The notes beneath the pieces are model-generated. The model did no database searches, was not told the DNA's origin, and was given only the letters and a program-made list of their open reading frames with translations. The position numbers were made by a program, and so were the translations under genes. Below are positions 27,991 through 35,585 of a stretch of DNA of 60,233 nucleotides, piece by piece; positions within the stretch are counted from its first letter, which is position 1, and each line of letters begins with the position of its first letter. The DNA comes from Bacteroidales bacterium (GTDB lineage: Bacteria; Bacteroidota; Bacteroidia; Bacteroidales; UBA932). Where the stretch lies: assembly GCA_024401745.1 (NCBI GenBank), contig JAKSKK010000010.1, positions 1 through 60,233 of the forward strand. The letters run 5' to 3'.

Positions 27991-28575
27991 TCAGTCGAAT
28001 ATCACTCCTGGGTTGGTGGCACTCGGGCTCGCCCATTCGATTCCGTGCCTTGCCAGCGCTGCTTTCTTGGCTGACCAGTAGGAGTAGCAGAATCCCATTC
28101 CGCGGGGCTCTCCCTTAAGTTCCTCGTCCACTTCCTTCTCGACCTCGTAGATCACCTTCTCCCATTCGGGGCTGCGTTCTACGTTGTCGAACCTCAGGTG
28201 GCGGTTGTACTTGCGGCAGAATGCGTTAACCGAGACGAGAGGGTTCAGGTAGTCCTTGAGCCTTTCGATGTCCTTTTCGATGTCCTGCCTGCGGGTCTCG
28301 CATCCTTCGGCCTGGTCATAGATAGAGAGCTGATACTCTCTCATCCTGAGGCTGAAACGGGGGATGTCCAGCTCGCTGATGCAGTCAGCGAAGTGCCCGA
28401 TGAGGTCCACGCGGTTGGCGGCGTTCACCTCCTCGTCAAAGTCCAGGGGAAGGGCCACGAGCTTCTCGTAGGCCTCGGGAACCAGCTGGAGGTTCTTCCA
28501 GCGGGCATTGTTGTCTGCGTCATTCTTGGCTATTGCCTTGCAGAGCTTGAGCATTTCCTTCATTTGCTTCTTCAT
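27991..28575 (-). CDS. Small unknown protein at the end of the kinase cassette
   Basis: 194 residues from ATG 28575. The frame stays open to 28728, giving a lipoprotein-like leader (FACCSS), but that would overlap the DUF1963 gene by about 140 nt, so the shorter form is preferred. It is highly charged and mostly helical, with a coiled-coil-like stretch (DIEKDIERLKDYL) and an aromatic C-terminal part (GFCYSYWSAKKAAL ending NPGVIFD). No family is recognised. It follows the DUF1963 gene by 10 nt and is the last gene of the cassette. Confidence 0.65.
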   Translation of the reverse strand: MKKQMKEMLKLCKAIAKNDADNNARWKNLQLVPEAYEKLVALPLDFDEEVNAANRVDLIGHFADCISELDIPRFSLRMREYQLSIYDQAEGCETRRQDIEKDIERLKDYLNPLVSVNAFCRKYNRHLRFDNVERSPEWEKVIYEVEKEVDEELKGEPRGMGFCYSYWSAKKAALARHGIEWASPSATNPGVIFD

Positions 28576-28585
28576 GTTCAGTGAA

Positions 28586-29209
28586 TCAGAATGAGTGTAG
28601 GTAACATTTTGTGTACTGGAATCTGCGTTCCTCAAGGTCCTGGGGCTGGAGCAGCATGCAAAGCATGCCACAGTCATAAAAACGAAGGCCCCAGTCATCG
28701 TTTTCGTCAATCTGTAAAAGGCTGACATAATCGTGATATTGTTCGTTTATTTCCTGCAGGTACGGTCTGCCCAGCAGGCGGGTGTCGTCTGACGTATCGT
28801 CGCATTTCCTGAATGATATGGCTTCGGCAGGCATGCAGGCCGGGGTGCCGTCGTCATATACGGTAACGTGCGTGTGCAGGGTGCCGCAGTCCTTGCTGTA
28901 CAGCACCTTGAAGAATGGTGCCTGCCACTCTCCCATGCCGGGGTTGCACTCGGCTTCGGGGTTGCCGAGGAAGTAGTCCAGCGAGCCGAAGAACCAGAGC
29001 ATGCCTTCGTGGGGGAGCAGGCCCTCGGTGTCAAGTTCCGCCAGCTCTTCGCAGCGTATCTGGCAGATGAAGGTGAGAGGGTCGCTGTAGTCCTCGTCTA
29101 TTGGGACCTCAGGGTATTCCAGCGACTCCGGCATGTCGGGAAAGCCCCACCACTTGCTCCTGCCGGTGAGGTCCTCGTCCGTTTTCCTGAATTCCAGTGC
29201 TATTGCCAT
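28586..29209 (-). CDS. DUF1963 (YwqG-like) domain protein
   Basis: A 207-residue protein matching the DUF1963 pattern: KWWGFPDMPESLEYP near the N-terminus, PLTFICQIRCEELAELD, MLWFFGSLDYF, and a C-terminal MLCMLLQPQDLEERRFQ. The family's biochemistry is unknown, though its members often accompany signalling or polymorphic-toxin genes. It lies 12 nt downstream of the PP2C gene. It could be a substrate-recognition or immunity-like partner; that is speculation. Confidence 0.8.
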   Translation of the reverse strand: MAIALEFRKTDEDLTGRSKWWGFPDMPESLEYPEVPIDEDYSDPLTFICQIRCEELAELDTEGLLPHEGMLWFFGSLDYFLGNPEAECNPGMGEWQAPFFKVLYSKDCGTLHTHVTVYDDGTPACMPAEAISFRKCDDTSDDTRLLGRPYLQEINEQYHDYVSLLQIDENDDWGLRFYDCGMLCMLLQPQDLEERRFQYTKCYLHSF

Positions 29210-29221
29210 ACTGTCTGATAA

Positions 29222-29995
29222 TCAAGCCCATGCATCGAAGCGGCCGTCGTCGTCGGGCCCTTCCGCACTGGCAAAGTCTCCGCCGCCGATGACGGCGGCT
29301 ATTATGCTTATATTGTCGCTGGAGCCGTTCTCCTCAGCCCAGTCCAGCAGGTCCTCAGCGGGCCTTGGCGAGTTGGTGAGCCAGTACTCCAGGGTGTCGT
29401 CGTCGGCAACGTCGCCCAGGCCGTCGGAGCACACGAGCACTATGTCGTCGTCCCTGAGCCTCTCGGTGATCTCGAACACGGCCAGAGTGGTCTCGGTGCC
29501 TCCTCCTATGCAGTTCGTCAGTGCACCGTCGGGGTTCTCGTCGTCGTATGATATCTGCTGGATGAGCCCGTCGCGGAAGATGTAGGTCCTGCTGTCGCCG
29601 GCATTGACCAGCCATGCGTGGCCGTTCAGCCATACTATGCCGGAGAGGGTGCAGCCCATGGGCTTCTCCTGCTGCTCGTACCTGGCCATGTCGTTCATCT
29701 TGATGCTGACGTACTTCACCTCGCGGGTGAACTCCTCGGCAAAGTTCTCGGGGTCGATGTCGCCGAAGTGGAAGCATTCGCGCAGGTGCTCCATCAGCAT
29801 GCTGCTGGCCATCTCGCCCCTGTCGTGACCGCCCATTCCGTCGGCCACAAGCAGGTAGAAGTAGCCGTCGTCATCGATGCTGACGGGCGTGGATATCTTC
29901 TCGTCGCGCAGCAGTATGCCGCCCAGCGAGACCATGTCCTCGTTGTTGCCGCGGACGCATCCGCAGTCGCATATCGCATTGATGTTCAGCTTCAT
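29222..29995 (-). CDS. PP2C-family Ser/Thr protein phosphatase
   Basis: 257 residues from ATG 29995, whose ATGA overlaps the FHA stop. Metal-site motifs are complete: RGNNEDMV (15-22), ADGMGGHDRGEMAS (51-64), VNAGDSRTY and CSDGLGDVADD. Bacterial PP2C enzymes remove phosphate from Ser/Thr on targets of partner kinases. The kinase is encoded three genes upstream in the same cassette, so this is its likely eraser. No signal or membrane segment, so it is cytoplasmic. Confidence 0.92.
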   Translation of the reverse strand: MKLNINAICDCGCVRGNNEDMVSLGGILLRDEKISTPVSIDDDGYFYLLVADGMGGHDRGEMASSMLMEHLRECFHFGDIDPENFAEEFTREVKYVSIKMNDMARYEQQEKPMGCTLSGIVWLNGHAWLVNAGDSRTYIFRDGLIQQISYDDENPDGALTNCIGGGTETTLAVFEITERLRDDDIVLVCSDGLGDVADDDTLEYWLTNSPRPAEDLLDWAEENGSSDNISIIAAVIGGGDFASAEGPDDDGRFDAWA

Positions 29996-30456
29996 TGCTC
30001 TACGGTGAATTTGCTGGTCGCTATCTTGACGCTGCTTCCGGCAGCGATGTCGTGCCATTCGTCCTTGGGCAGTCTGTGCCCGTCGACGAATGTGCCGTTG
30101 GTGCTTCCGAAGTCACGTATCTGCCACTTTCCTGACAGGCGGCGCAGTTCTCCGTGCTTCCTTGAGACGTATTGCATGGCGGCAAGCTCGGGATAGATTC
30201 CGCCGTCGCGCCCGAACACACCTTCGCGGAGGGGCAGCCTGAGCCCATCCCCGACAAGGAACAGAGCCTTTTCTGCTGCAGGCTTTGCCTTGAAGTACTC
30301 CTCAGCGCTCACAAGGTCGGCTCCGCAGGCCGGGCATTCGGTCCCGCGCGCAGGCTTGTGGCAGTCGGGGCAGAAGTGCAGCTCCTTGCCGCACTGGTCG
30401 CAGAACCAGCTGTCGTCCGGGATCTCCGCCCGGCAGAAAGGACATTTCATGCTCAT
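29992..30456 (-). CDS. Zinc-ribbon plus FHA-domain protein
   Basis: A 154-residue protein. The N-terminal third has two zinc ribbons (CPFC/CDQC and CPDC/CPAC). The rest is an FHA domain with GRDGG (82-86), SRKHGEL (98-104) and GSTNGTFVDG (117-126), the residues that bind phosphothreonine. It is the reader of the cassette. The ATG overlaps the end of the AAA gene, and its stop overlaps the PP2C start, so reader and eraser are probably made in step. Confidence 0.92.
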   Translation of the reverse strand: MSMKCPFCRAEIPDDSWFCDQCGKELHFCPDCHKPARGTECPACGADLVSAEEYFKAKPAAEKALFLVGDGLRLPLREGVFGRDGGIYPELAAMQYVSRKHGELRRLSGKWQIRDFGSTNGTFVDGHRLPKDEWHDIAAGSSVKIATSKFTVEQ

Positions 30457-32900
30457 ATTATGTCTTCGGGTTTGATTGTCTTGAGTTCTTCTATGCTTGC
30501 GTCCTCGACGTCCAGCAGGCGCAGAGCCATGTTGTTCCGCACGTCGTCCAGCAGGTTCCTCACCTCGCGTGCGTTGGCGAAGTCATAGCCTCTGTGGTCG
30601 TAGATGTCCTGAAGCTTTGCGGCCACGGCCTGCCTTGACTCCTCGGGGAGTATGAAGCCCTGCCTGCCGCACTGCAGCTCGAATATCTTCAGCATATCAT
30701 CGGGCCTGTAGTCCTCGAACTCTATGCTGTTGCGGAAGCGTGACTTCAGGCCTGAATTCGCGTCCAGGAAGTCCTGCATCTCCTTGGTGTAGCCCGCGGC
30801 GATGCACACGAACTTGCCTTTGTAGTTCTCCAGCATGGGCACAAGGGTGTTGATGCACTCCTGGCCGAAGTTGTCGTTGGTCCCGTTCACCAGAGAGTAG
30901 GCCTCGTCGATGAACAGCACACCGCCCATGGCGCTCATGACCACGTCCTTGGTCTTCGTGGCCGTCTGGCCCTGGAATCCTGCCACCATGTCGTCGCGGC
31001 CCACTTCCACGACGTCGGCGCGGGGGATGAGCTTCATTGCATGGAGCATCTTTCCCATCAGGCGGGCAACGGTGGTCTTGCCGGTTCCGGGATTGCCGAG
31101 GAAGAGGTAGTGGCCCACGCACACGTCGGGGGTGCGGCTCTCGGCCTGGGCGAGCTTCAGCTCCCTGTTGACCGATGCCACAAGGCGGCGTATGTTGGTC
31201 TTCACGCCCTCCAGTCCTATGAGGGAGTCAAGCTCCTCCATCACGTCCTTGAGCTTTACCTCGGTGCCGGCATCCTTTCCTGCTATATCGCTGTAAATCA
31301 AAAGCTTACCCTCGCTTGCTATGGCTTCATCGCTCATGGTGCGTATGCGTTCGCGGCGGCGTTCCTCAGCCTTCCTCAGGGCGTTGCGCACGTCGCGGGC
31401 ATTGCCGAAGTTCTCGGAGCGCATGTTGTACATCTTCTCCATCTCGACATGGAGCTTGTCGGAAGCCTCGGAGTCGAGGGTATAGCCGTCCTTGCCGGCC
31501 ATAGAGCGGTAGATCTGCTCCAGTTCGGCGGCGTTGTAGTCGGGGAAGTCGATGGTCTTGTTGAACCTGGATTCCAGGCCGGAATTCGCCTTCATGAAGT
31601 CGCGCATCTCGCGGCTGTAGCCGGCCAGGATGCACACGAAGTCGCCCCTGCGGTTCTCTACGATGGGGAGCAGCTTGTCGATGGCGGCCTGCCCGAACTG
31701 CCCGTCGTTGAGGCCGTAAGCCTCGTCGATGAAGAGTATTCCGCCCATGGCCTTGTCGACGGCCTGCTGGACGTTGCGCTCCGATCCGCCAATCACGTCG
31801 GCTATCAGGTCCTTGCCTGCGAGTTCCACGAACTGGCCCTTTGGCAGTATGCCCAGCGCGCCGAGCACGTCGGCGAATATGCGGGCGATGGTGGTCTTGC
31901 CCGTGCCGGGGTTGCCGGTGAAGACGTAGTGGTCCTCTATGCGCATTGTGCCGCCGCAGCGCTTTGCATCCTTGATGGAGTCGATTATGCCGTGTATCTC
32001 CTTCTTGACGTTCTCCATGCCCACGAAGCCGTCCAGTTCCTTCCATATCTCCTCGTCGCTGCGGGGCTCGAACACTTTACCGGTGATGTCGCCTGCATGA
32101 ACTGACCTGTGCCCTGCCGATACGGCGTTCACTGCCAGTTCCTGGGCCACGAAGGTGGCCAGGTGGCCGTTCACAGGGCCGTTCCCGTCTTCGCGGCATA
32201 TCCATCTGATGCGCTTGGCCAGCTTCTCGGCGGCATCGGGCTCCACGCCCATTCCGAAGTCGTCCTTGAGTTTGCTGACGGTGAGGGCGCTGATTTCATC
32301 CTCTTCCATTCCGTTGAGGAAGAAGCGGAACTCGAACAGGGACGCGGTGTCGGGGTTCTTCTCAAGGAACGGCTCAAGGCCTTTCCTGAGGCCGCAGAGG
32401 AACACGGTGGGGACGGTAGAGGGGGAGGACTTCATCCTCGAGAAGAGCTTGTCGAGCTGCCCCACGCTCGTCGAGAACTCTCCGGGCACCAGCTTCTGGG
32501 CATTGGTGATCACGAGCACGCCCTTCTCTATCTTCTTGATATTGGCGTCGAAGGCCTGCATCCAGCTGCCTATCTCGGCAGCATCCACCACCTTGGGACT
32601 GGCGTCGGAGACGTAGTTCTCCTTCAGCAGTATCTTGAAAAGCTCGCCGCTCAGGAAATTCTTGCCCGTGCCGGCATCGCCCATGATGACGCAGTCCATG
32701 CCTATCCTTGCCTTGCCGCCAAGCTGGTGCAGGCGGGAGGCCACGGATGCCCGTCCGGTGAACTTCTCAAGTTCCGGCTCGATGCACTTCTTGCCTATGA
32801 AGCCCTTGTACTTCTCTTCTTCGGGCATGGGCGCTCCGCAATGCCTGCAGAACCTTGCCTCGGGCCTGTTGTCAGTGTTGCAACTATTGCACTTCGCCAT
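30453..32900 (-). CDS. Zinc-ribbon protein with three AAA ATPase domains (CbbX/SpoVK/EccA-like)
   Basis: An 815-residue protein. It starts with a zinc ribbon (CNSC ... CRHC, 4-21). AAA1 has GDAGTGKN (74-81), but the Walker B region reads VLVITNAQ, lacking the usual DE. AAA2 (GNPGTGKTT, about 327) and AAA3 (GNPGTGKTT, about 601) are complete, with near-duplicate DEAYGL/DEAYSL, AGYSREM/AGYTKEM and ANSGLESRF/ANSGLKSRF. AAA2 and AAA3 match the CbbX family, whose members remodel Rubisco or serve type VII secretion. Here it probably remodels a target of the kinase system. It lies between the kinase and the FHA gene. Confidence 0.9.
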   Translation of the reverse strand: MAKCNSCNTDNRPEARFCRHCGAPMPEEEKYKGFIGKKCIEPELEKFTGRASVASRLHQLGGKARIGMDCVIMGDAGTGKNFLSGELFKILLKENYVSDASPKVVDAAEIGSWMQAFDANIKKIEKGVLVITNAQKLVPGEFSTSVGQLDKLFSRMKSSPSTVPTVFLCGLRKGLEPFLEKNPDTASLFEFRFFLNGMEEDEISALTVSKLKDDFGMGVEPDAAEKLAKRIRWICREDGNGPVNGHLATFVAQELAVNAVSAGHRSVHAGDITGKVFEPRSDEEIWKELDGFVGMENVKKEIHGIIDSIKDAKRCGGTMRIEDHYVFTGNPGTGKTTIARIFADVLGALGILPKGQFVELAGKDLIADVIGGSERNVQQAVDKAMGGILFIDEAYGLNDGQFGQAAIDKLLPIVENRRGDFVCILAGYSREMRDFMKANSGLESRFNKTIDFPDYNAAELEQIYRSMAGKDGYTLDSEASDKLHVEMEKMYNMRSENFGNARDVRNALRKAEERRRERIRTMSDEAIASEGKLLIYSDIAGKDAGTEVKLKDVMEELDSLIGLEGVKTNIRRLVASVNRELKLAQAESRTPDVCVGHYLFLGNPGTGKTTVARLMGKMLHAMKLIPRADVVEVGRDDMVAGFQGQTATKTKDVVMSAMGGVLFIDEAYSLVNGTNDNFGQECINTLVPMLENYKGKFVCIAAGYTKEMQDFLDANSGLKSRFRNSIEFEDYRPDDMLKIFELQCGRQGFILPEESRQAVAAKLQDIYDHRGYDFANAREVRNLLDDVRNNMALRLLDVEDASIEELKTIKPEDII

Positions 32901-34923
32901 TGTCTTCTACTGTTTCAGTCTGTTCGACATTGCTGTTCCTGCTGTCTATCTTCGCATCCACCCCCGCTGCTATGAACATATATAGCAAGGTGATGAAGGT
33001 CATAAGTATCAGCCTCTTGCGCCTTATCTTGATGTCATCCTTCCACCACTCCATGTCGCTGTCCTTCAGCTGGGTCTCGATGGAAGAATTGAAGGTCTTC
33101 TCGTTGTTGAAGGCATAGTACAGGGGGTCCGTCCGCAACTGCTCGGTCGAAGGAGGAAGCAGTTCGTTCTTCCCGACTGAGAACACGCTCTTCTGGAAGA
33201 AGAAGAAAATGCAGTCGAGCAGGGCGACTATGGCGGCTCCTATCTTCAGCGCAGGTGCCGCGCCGAATGCGACGAACAGCAGGGGCGGCACCATGAGCAC
33301 AAGGCCGATGATGGTCTGGGCGCGGGTCTTCTTCCAGTTCTTCTCGACAACGAAGAGCTGATGTCTGTATATGTCGAGCACTTTGTTCTTCGCCTGCCTG
33401 AATCTCAGGCTCTCGTCGGCAAGAGGGTCTATTTCGTGGATCTCGTCGAGATACTGTTCCAGGAGTTCCTCGTACCTGCCTTTTTCGCTCAGGTCCTCGA
33501 ACGGGTTCTCGTGGAACTGCACGGCGAGCCATCCCTTGAGGCCTTTCCTGAGGGCAGCCTTCCTGTCGCCCTTGGCGTTGTGGATCTCATCAAGCGTGGT
33601 GATGGTCTCTCCGCTGTCTTCGAAGGTGTATTCCGGTGTGTATCCGAAGCCCCTGATGGTCTTCATTATCGAGATCTCCAGCCTTGTCATGCCGTCCTGC
33701 GGCCCTGCCTTGCGCCGGTTGTCGTCGGATTCCCAGTCGCAGCAATACCGCATCCAGTCCAGCTGCTCCGAGAAGACGGATTCCTTGCCATCGAAGAACA
33801 CCTCCATGTAGGACTCCTCGAAGTTCTCGAAACTTGAGAGAATAAGGCCTGCCAGTTTCCTGTCCTCTATCGGGCAGGGATAGGAGTCAAGCCTGAACCA
33901 TTTGTACAGTTCGTTGAACAGTATGGCTATCCTGGGCGGGGTGCCCAGATAGTCGGGGGAATCCATATCGGTGTTGAAGACGGGGTCGGACAGAGGGTCC
34001 GTGTACAGTCTGAGTGCATATTCGCCCACTTCGCCTTCGCCGAGGTAGTTTGCCAGGTCCTCCAGCTTGAATCTTCTGGCGGGGTTCTTTTCCAGAAGGC
34101 CATTGACGATTTCCCTGAGATTGTCGGGCATGTCGGCCGGCGCCTTGATGCCTGTGGTGAGCTTTGTCACTGCCAGGTCCTGCTCCTTGCCGAGGAATTC
34201 CTTCTCTCCCATCCAGAGGCAGATTGCGGTCATTCCCAGCGAGTAGAAGTCGGCGGCCGGAGTTATCTGGAATATGTCCTGTCCGTCGATGCGGGCCACG
34301 GCATTCTTCGGGTTGTACAGTTCCGGGGCCGCATATATGGGCGTGCGGGCCTGCTTTGTGCTGACTTTCCCGTCGGTGAGCACGTCCGCTATGCCGAAGT
34401 CGCACAGCTCGCAGGTCCAGAAGGTATCGTCGGTGATGAGTATGTTGGCGGGCTTCACGTCCTTGTGGATGATGCCGGCCTTGTGGCACTTGTCCAGCGC
34501 CAGGGCTATCTTGAGGATGATGGACAGGATCTCCGACGACTGGCCCTTGAAATTGTATTTCGCTGCCGATCCGCAGGGGTACCAGTGCATTATCTCGTAC
34601 TCGCGTCCATCCTTGACGCCGGTGCTGAGCACTTCAGCAATCAGGCCCTTGCCATGCAGTTTCCTGAGGTAGGGGAAGACCTTCTTGTTGGGAGCGTGGC
34701 CGTCCTTGTAGAGCTTCATGGCGCAGGTCTCGCCATTGAACTGCACTTTGTAGATGTCGGCCTCCGACCCTGAACTTACCAGTGCCGGATCGCCGTCGTC
34801 CAGGCCCGTGGCCTTCGTGCCTGTGCCAGGTGCATGCATTGTCACGGTTCCTTCAGGAGCAGTGACAGTCCCTTCCGGGGCGACGCATGTGCCCTGGGGC
34901 GCTATGATTGTTCCTTCACTCAT
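32884..34923 (-). CDS. Membrane-associated Ser/Thr protein kinase with Thr-rich N-terminal repeats
   Basis: 679 residues from ATG 34923; this start overlaps the zinc-ribbon gene's stop as ATGA and drops a 41-residue upstream extension. Residues 5-36 hold short repeats of the form A-P-x-G-T. The kinase domain has a glycine loop near 50-58, Lys70, HKDVKPANIL (153-162) and DFG (175-177), then TPIYAAPE. A long C-terminal part follows, with hydrophobic stretches at about 530-575 and 636-655, so the protein is likely in the inner membrane. The tail is acidic. It is the writer of the cassette; the AAA gene overlaps its end by 17 nt. Confidence 0.9.
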   Translation of the reverse strand: MSEGTIIAPQGTCVAPEGTVTAPEGTVTMHAPGTGTKATGLDDGDPALVSSGSEADIYKVQFNGETCAMKLYKDGHAPNKKVFPYLRKLHGKGLIAEVLSTGVKDGREYEIMHWYPCGSAAKYNFKGQSSEILSIILKIALALDKCHKAGIIHKDVKPANILITDDTFWTCELCDFGIADVLTDGKVSTKQARTPIYAAPELYNPKNAVARIDGQDIFQITPAADFYSLGMTAICLWMGEKEFLGKEQDLAVTKLTTGIKAPADMPDNLREIVNGLLEKNPARRFKLEDLANYLGEGEVGEYALRLYTDPLSDPVFNTDMDSPDYLGTPPRIAILFNELYKWFRLDSYPCPIEDRKLAGLILSSFENFEESYMEVFFDGKESVFSEQLDWMRYCCDWESDDNRRKAGPQDGMTRLEISIMKTIRGFGYTPEYTFEDSGETITTLDEIHNAKGDRKAALRKGLKGWLAVQFHENPFEDLSEKGRYEELLEQYLDEIHEIDPLADESLRFRQAKNKVLDIYRHQLFVVEKNWKKTRAQTIIGLVLMVPPLLFVAFGAAPALKIGAAIVALLDCIFFFFQKSVFSVGKNELLPPSTEQLRTDPLYYAFNNEKTFNSSIETQLKDSDMEWWKDDIKIRRKRLILMTFITLLYMFIAAGVDAKIDSRNSNVEQTETVEDNGEVQ

Positions 34924-35585
34924 TTCTCGTACTCGTAGCTGGTGGTTTCGGTTATGGTCTCGGTGTACTGCCACTGCCCGCCGAGTTCGGGCCTTGCGCA
35001 TTCGCCGGGGTTGCTGTGGGTGCAGCCGCAGAAGTTGCATACCCATCCCACAGGGGTAAGCGTGCGCTGCTGGTGCACTACGGCTATCTTTCTTGCAGAG
35101 AAATAGTTACGCTGCTGCTGTGGTGTGCTTCCGGCAGGCGGGAGCATTTCAGCGAGAATCTGGTTGAGCGACTTCACCGTCCGCACGTACTCCTTCTCGT
35201 CTGTGGTTTCGGCGGCCTTGCGGCTCAGCTCCACGGCCTCCTGGAACCTGGGGTCGGCCTGGGCCTTCTGCAGCACGCGTTCCGCCGCCTTCGTGAGGGG
35301 GTGGTTGCACTTGCGGCAGAATCCGCGCTGGTTGAGCGTTCCGCATTCAGGGCAGACTATGCCTCCGGTGCCGGCTCCGCAGTCGGGGCACACCGTCTCT
35401 CCCGGAAGAAGGTCGGCTCCGCAGAAGGTGCAGTAGGGCACGAGCCTCCTGCCGCAGTGCGGGCAGAACTCCTCGTGTCCGCTGATGCCACGGCCGCAGC
35501 CTGGGCACTTGCCGCCTGCTTCGGCTTCTGCTCTTGGTGCAGCTTTAGCGGCGGCCTGAACTTTTGCATTTACATAATCTGCCAT
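34920..35585 (-). CDS. Multiple zinc-ribbon protein, first gene of the kinase cassette
   Basis: A 221-residue protein with zinc ribbons at about 27-44 (CPGC/CPHC), 52-69 (CTFC/CPDC) and 78-93 (CPEC/CRKC). A helical part follows, then a C-terminal CNFCGC with a further Cys. No catalytic domain is visible. Zinc ribbons of the same type start the AAA and FHA proteins, so they may be a shared docking element. The gene has its own promoter, divergent to the LOG gene. Confidence 0.85.
   Translation of the reverse strand: MADYVNAKVQAAAKAAPRAEAEAGGKCPGCGRGISGHEEFCPHCGRRLVPYCTFCGADLLPGETVCPDCGAGTGGIVCPECGTLNQRGFCRKCNHPLTKAAERVLQKAQADPRFQEAVELSRKAAETTDEKEYVRTVKSLNQILAEMLPPAGSTPQQQRNYFSARKIAVVHQQRTLTPVGWVCNFCGCTHSNPGECARPELGGQWQYTETITETTSYEYEK

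Follow-up and report, generated by a model that had tools for sequence, protein, structure and literature searches.

A sparse five-gene kinase, phosphatase, FHA and AAA ATPase cassette in Bacteroidota with a threonine array as candidate FHA ligand

A five-gene cassette encoding a zinc-ribbon protein, a membrane Ser/Thr kinase, an AAA ATPase, a zinc-ribbon-FHA protein and a PP2C phosphatase is confirmed, with two accessory genes, in the Bacteroidales contig JAKSKK010000010.1 (assembly GCA_024401745.1). This contig was analysed at its full length of 60,233 nucleotides (nt) and is called the window; the cassette runs leftward over 27991-35585. The five genes are a real, phylum-wide but sparse, co-inherited signalling cassette of Bacteroidota, and they fit no named system tested. 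The reading preferred here, with a probability of roughly 0.55, is that the cassette encodes a membrane-anchored phospho-switch controlling an AAA+ remodelling machine.

Sets of kinase, phosphatase and FHA genes are known in bacteria, and which protein the FHA domain reads is often unclear. Here the sequence itself points to a likely FHA ligand, an array of threonines at the N-terminus of the kinase. Because this array and a motif of the FHA protein in distant relatives name the likely ligand, docking is open to peptide work, and the phospho-array mechanism suggested by them would be both specific and testable. The cassette also links a phospho-switch with a multi-module AAA ATPase and, in many relatives, with the binding of peptidoglycan. 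Its Bacteroidales carriers are known mainly from gut and rumen metagenomes, and envelope signalling is little known in them.

Organization of the locus

A first-pass annotation, made from the letters of the window, had described seven tightly packed leftward genes with ATGA overlaps, and the coordinates agree. Seven minus-strand genes occupy 27991-35585, with overlaps or gaps of less than 13 nt between all of them. The ATG of the kinase gene overlaps the zinc-ribbon stop codon as ATGA, and the AAA gene overlaps the kinase gene by 17 nt. Further ATGA overlaps lie at the starts of the FHA gene (with the AAA gene) and the PP2C gene (with the FHA gene). Gaps of 12 nt and 10 nt separate the PP2C gene from the DUF1963 gene and the latter from the last gene. 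The protein labels given in that annotation are backed by Pfam and NCBIfam matches, and zinc ribbons match above cut-off in three proteins, as it had said. Its seven-gene cassette stands in part: five genes form the core, and the DUF1963 gene and the last gene are accessory only. Its interpretation is supported; new relative to it are that the core has only five genes, that most kinases have a peptidoglycan-binding domain and that the kinase begins with a threonine array. The core features are as follows (gene coordinates include the stop codon; the Pkinase, AAA, FHA and PP2C_2 matches, like that of DUF1963, all exceed the Pfam cut-offs).

34920..35585, minus strand: zinc-ribbon protein, 221 amino acids (aa), core gene 1; Pfam DZR, 42 bits
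32884..34923, minus strand: membrane Ser/Thr kinase, 679 aa, core gene 2; Pfam Pkinase, 87.5 bits
34840..34914, minus strand: kinase N-terminal threonine array, residues 4-28; from sequence, array statistics and codons
30453..32900, minus strand: AAA ATPase, 815 aa, core gene 3; Pfam AAA, 123 bits, with AAA_lid_6
29992..30456, minus strand: zinc-ribbon-FHA protein, 154 aa, core gene 4; Pfam FHA, 47 bits, and DZR, 39 bits
29222..29995, minus strand: PP2C phosphatase, 257 aa, core gene 5; Pfam PP2C_2, 40.5 bits

Conservation and co-inheritance of the core

Bacteroidales loci were gathered by scanning genome contigs with a profile of the zinc-ribbon protein, which yielded 46 loci. One of these (L092), a 26-bit Clostridiales match, was dropped as a chance ribbon. 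The remaining 45 are titled Bacteroidales, Bacteroidia, Prevotellaceae, Cryptobacteroides, Alistipes, Bacteroides or Barnesiella. The core count excludes four loci cut by contig ends (L060, L061, L066 and L087). Every uncut Bacteroidales locus, 42 of 42 (41 plus the window), has the complete set of five core genes, and their order is the same in 41; L074 places the kinase last. The genes had been proposed to form one unit, and this homologous-cluster count bears the proposal out: they are not scattered in relatives, and the core is also whole in four genomes of other classes. Some copies are looser, with the FHA and PP2C genes 1.2 kilobases (kb) apart in L055 and about 0.7 kb between the ATPase and FHA genes in L071, L073 and L080. 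The zinc-ribbon gene is read as two open reading frames (ORFs) in L090 and begins at the contig end in L091.

An ATPase search that did not depend on the zinc-ribbon bait was run in 61 relatives. Full-length homologues were found in 6 of 37 genomes of the window's genus (its own included) and in one further genome, G056. The cassette is present in all six of the other ATPase-positive genomes. It is complete in five; the sixth, G006, holds the ATPase, FHA and PP2C genes up to a contig end. Two divergent Bacteroidales also carry a complete core (L093, a single-contig genome, and L095), while contig ends truncate L094 and the divergent relative L041 is only partial. Among 393 genomes of the order, five have strong matches (the window's own, G056, G727, G664 and G454) and G047 has a partial match; in the 24 further genomes listed at E up to 1e-5, the matches are short ribbon ones only. 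With so few strong matches in the order, the system is sparse.

The zinc-ribbon protein was found in seven of 395 genomes of the phylum: the window's genome, G454 and five others that are related to the window at phylum level only. Four of these five distant genomes (L120, L122, L123 and L124) carry all five core genes in the usual order. In L124, a SUKH-like ORF lies between the first two genes and the PP2C gene is cut by the end of the fetched stretch. The contig of the fifth distant copy, L121, is 7 kb long and breaks off shortly past the kinase gene. A strict FHA search of the 395 genomes returned the window only and was too strict for a protein of 154 aa.

Pairwise distances are correlated for all ten protein pairs across the 42 loci (r 0.85-0.95), a level reached by 0 of 500 permutations per pair. 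Since shared genome ancestry would give such a correlation too, it indicates co-inheritance, not contact. The closest relative of the window is the same locus for all five proteins, L088, titled Candidatus Alistipes equi. No relative of the cassette was found in plasmids or in viral contigs, the latter searched with the same alignment as the genomes. A neighbouring DUF819 gene has a match in 22 of 61 genomes of the genus searched. None of four other flanking genes was found in the short flanks of the DUF819 loci of other genomes, so gain or loss of the cassette is not readable from synteny.

The threonine array and its predicted reader

After the residues MSE, the window kinase carries the array GTIIAPQGTCVAPEGTVTAPEGTVT (residues 4-28). 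Its threonines (Thr) at positions 5, 12, 19 and 26 are spaced seven apart, as are Thr21 and Thr28. At least three Thr in a seven-residue register were found in 40 of 44 kinase tails, the truncated loci L066 and L087 being retained for these statistics; in the Thr-rich tails of L071, L073, L081 and L087, some register counts may be chance. Adjacent Thr pairs spaced by seven number 132; in 1000 shuffles, the mean was 25 and the highest count 41. The patterns that cut out tails and linkers were crude, as several "linkers" include the FHA domain and a few tails default to 120 residues.

The spacing is the weaker evidence, because tandem repeats alone would yield it. Stronger evidence is that Thr was retained while the repeats diverged. 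It is kept in the variants KTAVAPQ, GTAVAPQ, PTAAAPQ, EKTAVKP, DKTLKP, SGTQRP and GTDVMPD, and arrays are of the KTAVAPQ type in Bacteroidales and of the DKTIR type, [DE]KT[IV]R, in the distant classes. The Thr codons of the arrays are mixed (ACG 82, ACA 77, ACC 63 and ACT 53), with three or four different ones in 29 of 35 arrays, which is the pattern expected if Thr is maintained in the protein.

In the distant classes, kinase and FHA protein share the motif. A relaxed form of [DE]KT[IV]R, which was defined after seeing the sequences, was sought in 61 ORFs (27,095 residues) from the five fetched distant-class stretches. It has 24 matches; 200 shuffles gave 0.66 on average and 4 at most. Every match falls in a cassette kinase tail (5 of 5 kinases) or in the last residues of the FHA protein (4 of 4). 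When the five whole genomes were searched with the array of one distant kinase (E up to 10), the seven matches were all in cassette kinases. This tag common to kinase and FHA protein is the best evidence that the kinase may write, and the FHA domain may read, the array.

The predicted reader has a conserved pocket. In the window FHA protein, the pocket residues are G82 and R83, S98, H101, and N120 and G121. The corresponding GR, SxxH and NG residues are invariant in 42 of 42 proteins and are the phosphothreonine-binding residues of FHA domains (PMC1262709). The predicted eraser is conserved as well: several PP2C aspartates are invariant in 42 of 42 loci, and the conserved Asp residues are present in the window. 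The PP2C protein scores 117 bits with the NCBIfam Stp1-type model, under its cut-off of 230.

Kinase, ATPase and zinc-ribbon protein

The start of the window kinase was set at 34923, the ATG that overlaps the upstream stop codon; the mechanical ORF extends to 35046. Its catalytic residues are all present (K70, HKD with D155, N160 and DFG at 175-177), and none of the 42 kinases deviates at the catalytic Lys, HxD, Asn and DFG. Hydropathy marks hydrophobic stretches at residues 534-561, 562-583 and 637-657 of the window kinase, followed by a C-terminal tail of 22 residues. Each of the 42 kinases has at least three such stretches, nearly all near the C-terminus. PG_binding_1, a peptidoglycan-binding domain, was matched in 26 of the 42, and a model built from two of these domains also matched 26 of 42 kinases, each time after the last hydrophobic stretch. 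The window is among six loci with three-module ATPases of less than 900 aa, in which the kinase tails have 12-40 residues and no peptidoglycan-binding domain. The L095 kinase ends in a bacterial SH3 domain. A second kinase match was seen in L074 only and is weak (378 aa, 50 bits, opposite strand).

The window ATPase has an N-terminal zinc ribbon, followed by one degenerate and two intact modules of the SpoVK/CbbX type. A motif scan placed Walker A at 329 and 602 and the Walker B DEA at 388 and 661; in a pattern scan, the first module showed the Walker A GDAGTGKN and no DEA-type Walker B. The label of three-AAA ATPase in the first-pass annotation holds for the three SpoVK-type stretches, but only two of the three modules look active. 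The best curated model is NCBIfam spore_V_K (461 bits against a cut-off of 422.95, across the three stretches), and the NCBIfam models of EccA and CbbX score the protein below their cut-offs. The ATPase is longer in 36 of 42 loci, with 1093-1139 aa and four modules where listed. The distant-class ATPases have five modules in three of four cases and four modules in the other. Other SpoVK-type AAA proteins of 600-1,150 aa from the same taxonomic order occur in L038, L039, L040, L043, L044, L045 and L046, outside any such cassette in the stretches read.

The zinc-ribbon protein has several C4 ribbons and a C-terminal WxCNxCGxxH...C...GGxW domain. In an alignment of 32 homologues (A5), the Cys residues and W181, C183, H190, C196, G202, G203 and W205 are invariant.

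Proposed mechanism

In the phospho-switch preferred here, the transmembrane kinase would monitor the envelope, as the peptidoglycan-binding domain of 26 of 42 relatives suggests; the window kinase is without this domain. When active, the kinase would phosphorylate the Thr residues of its own N-terminal array. The phosphorylated array could then serve as a multivalent dock for the FHA adaptor, whose pocket is conserved. In the distant classes, the copy of the motif at the adaptor's C-terminus may allow the adaptor itself to be tagged and bound, as a switch or a chain link. The adaptor would bring the ATPase and the multi-ribbon protein to the membrane, where a client protein may be remodelled. 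The PP2C phosphatase, judging by its family, would strip the tags and reset the system. The variable neighbours (TerB, DUF1963, SUKH, DUF4062, M48 peptidase and DnaJ-like zinc fingers) may be clients, co-chaperones or effectors.

In eukaryotic DNA-damage signalling, threonine clusters recruit FHA proteins. A more specific proposal, which is tentative and somewhat less probable than the switch as such, is a bacterial counterpart of these clusters: the kinase would write a multivalent phosphothreonine ladder on its own tail, and a dedicated FHA adaptor, which has the same tag in some lineages, would read it to gather and switch a giant AAA+ machine at the membrane. If this is true, each lineage has a private phospho-code, in which the tag sequence varies while the Thr and the partnership stay.

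Several observations weigh against the phospho-switch. The 42 of 42 linkage is conditional on the zinc-ribbon protein, which was the bait, and the 42 loci are not 42 independent cases because several are near-duplicates (e.g., L053, L055, L056 and L057). No peptidoglycan-binding domain was matched in 16 of 42 kinases, the window's included. The L091 array has a single Thr codon, as after a recent expansion, and the L093 kinase has scattered Thr and no clear array. Some repeats hold two Thr, which leaves the tagged residue ambiguous, and the tails of L074, L080, L084 and L085 repeat at other spacings. A convincing copy of the array motif is present in the FHA linker of only about 5 of 42 Bacteroidales (L062, L065, L072, L074 and L077). 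The window FHA protein has no copy, nor, by eye, do those of L093 and L095, so a tag of the adaptor's own is not general.

Some of these points are also what would be seen if the array were a mere flexible, repeat-prone linker, with the FHA domain reading other phosphoproteins and the kinase N-terminus having no docking role. Low-complexity repeats expand easily, and the single-codon array, the absence of a clear array in L093 and the few recognisable copies in Bacteroidales FHA linkers are in keeping with such a linker. A mere linker does not account for Thr being kept across repeats as unrelated as KTAVAPQ, DKTLKP, SGTQRP and DKTIR, for the varied Thr codons of most arrays or for the motif that ends the FHA protein in all four distant cassettes, and this alternative, which survives best among those weighed, is considered unlikely.

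Comparison with known systems

In the TerY-P triad, a vWA protein (TerY) is linked to a kinase and a PP2C phosphatase, and TerB-type proteins are linked as well. The triad was rejected for the cassette, as no PF00092 vWA match lies near it in 12 of 12 carriers. The absence of a vWA gene had already been pointed out for the window. PF00092 was the only vWA model tried; its matches are on a different contig from the cassette in 11 carriers and at a distance of 700 kb in G454, and several of the cassette contigs are short. TerB was found in 11 of 57 accessory proteins and in none of the seven window proteins. The triad and the GAP1-N2 kinase-PP2C-vWA sets of PMC7159879 likewise have a kinase with a zinc ribbon or membrane helices beside a PP2C phosphatase, and TerB proteins lie near some cassette loci. 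In contrast to them, the cassette has no linked vWA gene, and its core includes an FHA protein and a multi-module AAA ATPase.

The KKP module also combines a kinase, a PP2C phosphatase and an FHA domain, but has two kinases with the FHA domain fused to one of them and is widespread in prophages (PMC11341870). The cassette has one kinase, a separate FHA protein and an ATPase, and no copy of it was found in viral contigs. Two adjacent kinase genes were not found, each locus core having one kinase, and the KKP module was set aside. The kinase-PP2C-vWA sets and the KKP module are the nearest sets found in the literature. No description of the gene set was found in searches of an open-access library; within this scope, the remark of the first-pass annotation that no named system has this content stands.

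The actinobacterial pknA/pknB-pstP-fhaA/fhaB loci likewise combine genes for FHA proteins and a PP2C phosphatase with one for a transmembrane Ser/Thr kinase, part of which binds peptidoglycan. This part is made of PASTA repeats in the actinobacterial locus and is PG_binding_1 in 26 of 42 cassette kinases. To our knowledge, the pknA/pknB locus has no AAA ATPase, zinc-ribbon proteins or N-terminal threonine array. A PASTA kinase of the PknB/Stk1 type was excluded, as no PASTA repeats occur in the 42 kinases; PASTA is not among the ten families found in them at E up to 0.001. In Mycobacterium tuberculosis, FHA genes cluster with kinases and phosphatases (PMC1262709).

Two FHA proteins outside such loci offer parallels. 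OdhI/GarA likewise carries its own phosphothreonine motif, set by a kinase, outside the FHA domain (PMC12321487), and an intramolecular switch is named in a reference title of that paper. Its motif is an N-terminal ETTS and its targets are metabolic enzymes (PMC12321487), whereas the motif here is C-terminal, of the DKTIR type and confined to the distant classes. The FHA profile of the cassette also matches Sulfolobus ArnA (5a8i, E 1.3e-6) over the N-terminal part and the FHA domain together, so a fusion of the zinc-ribbon-FHA type has precedent. ArnA is regulated by phosphorylation (PMC6509490). Its partner ArnB is a vWA protein (PMC6509490), whereas the cassette has no linked vWA gene.

The modules of the ATPase resemble SpoVK, CbbX and EccA in sequence, but the cassette ATPase has three to five modules and a zinc ribbon per chain. 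Filing it as SpoVK was set aside, as a single 261-residue module was not found; the window protein has three modules in 815 aa.

Kinase, PP2C and FHA proteins accompany some type VI secretion loci. The PpkA-PppA-Fha type VI regulatory locus was rejected: TssC (PF17541) was found in 0 of 9 carriers, which include five genomes with a completeness of 90% or more and one in a single contig, and the TagH model TIGR03354 scored 26 bits against a cut-off of 120. This result extends the earlier statement that secretion genes are absent. PF17541 also failed to match any of 14 control genomes; in a positive control on the family of the single-contig genome, it matched 7 of 81 genomes.

A different role, as an anti-phage or inter-bacterial conflict system, would have the switch and ATPase sense infection or a toxin, with the accessory genes as effectors or immunity proteins. 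In favour of this, the distribution in the window's genus is patchy: a full-length ATPase was found in 6 of its 37 genomes, though many of the 37 are incomplete. DUF4062, a reported TIR-like NADase defence domain (PMC13174449), occurs in 6 of 42 loci, and SUKH is found at two of the five distant cassettes above the Pfam cut-off and at a third below it. Among PADLOC models, the kinase matches MAD6 of the MADS system best (91 bits), and the ATPase matches MAD8 as well as the IetA and DolB models. These matches span only the common kinase and AAA domains, and the sole other one, of the accessory protein of unassigned family to PDC-M39B, is weak (E 0.003). MADS itself was rejected, as the NCBIfam MAD6 model gives 67 bits against a cut-off of 460. 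The accessory sets vary by locus while the core co-diverges as a unit, and no copy was found in viral contigs or plasmids. A conflict role ranks next after the linker and is improbable.

It is very unlikely that the cassette regulates, as part of it, a secretion or envelope-assembly machine not recognised so far, in which the ATPase acts like EccA of type VII secretion, since the EccA model matches the ATPase at 379 bits but under its cut-off of 466.65, which also led to the rejection of type VII EccA, and, for all the company that kinase, PP2C and FHA proteins keep with type VI loci and the peptidoglycan-binding kinases of the cassette, TssC was not found in the nine carriers and no secretion family is among those found in 57 accessory proteins.

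Accessory genes and neighbours

Two accessory genes complete the window locus.

28586..29209, minus strand: DUF1963 (TYPP superfamily) protein, accessory; Pfam, 69 bits
27991..28575, minus strand: accessory protein of unassigned family, 194 aa, with a C-terminal PRGMGFCxxYWxxK...GIxW motif and no Pfam family above cut-off

The protein of unassigned family was found in 21 of 42 loci, DUF1963 in 12 and DUF4062 in the six given above (the window being included among the loci); these frequencies are lower limits, as the stretches end at about 10 kb. The accessory scan took 53 of 85 neighbouring ORFs in Bacteroidales loci and four others, 57 in all. Manual selection removed ORFs that had been labelled DUF1963, DUF4062 or unknown, together with some that were doubtful or of housekeeping type. 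Besides the 11 TerB proteins, Pfam matches include 4 Sel1, 2 MORN and 2 SUKH.

The SUKH family is often encountered as toxin immunity proteins. SUKH (SMI1/KNR4) proteins lie in or just after the distant cassettes L123 (10445-10966), L124 (9289-10083) and L121 (4665-5198, below cut-off). A chaperone-like role has been proposed for the TYPP superfamily, of which DUF1963 is a member (PMC4275035). DUF4062, which was reported as a TIR-like NADase in phage defence (PMC13174449), forms part of a protein of about 1,000 aa after or near the core in L034 (11868-14930) and L036 (5560-8679). It is also found downstream in L050, L053, L055, L056, L057 and L083, in all six of which it is cut by the stretch end. 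In L034 and L036, the DUF4062 gene is followed by a gene for a 600-aa protein and then by DUF1963; in L034, no Pfam family matches this 600-aa protein above cut-off.

A 930-aa accessory protein in L059 (2085-4877) combines a weak TerB-like start, below cut-off, with a ribosomal L7/L12 C-terminal domain (64 bits). Proteins with CxxCxGxG repeats and a DnaJ zinc-finger match below cut-off are encoded in L054 (18481-19827), L069 (14440-16020) and relatives. They lie two genes past PP2C, preceded by a small lipoprotein-like protein, and may hint at protein folding. The YWxxK...GIxW motif of the window protein at 27991-28575 recurs by eye in an otherwise different protein of L080 (8314-9447), upstream of the cassette. 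Two ORFs past the kinase of the rearranged cassette, L033 (434-1879) encodes a zinc-ribbon protein that also contains BspA-type leucine-rich repeats and a BatD-like domain.

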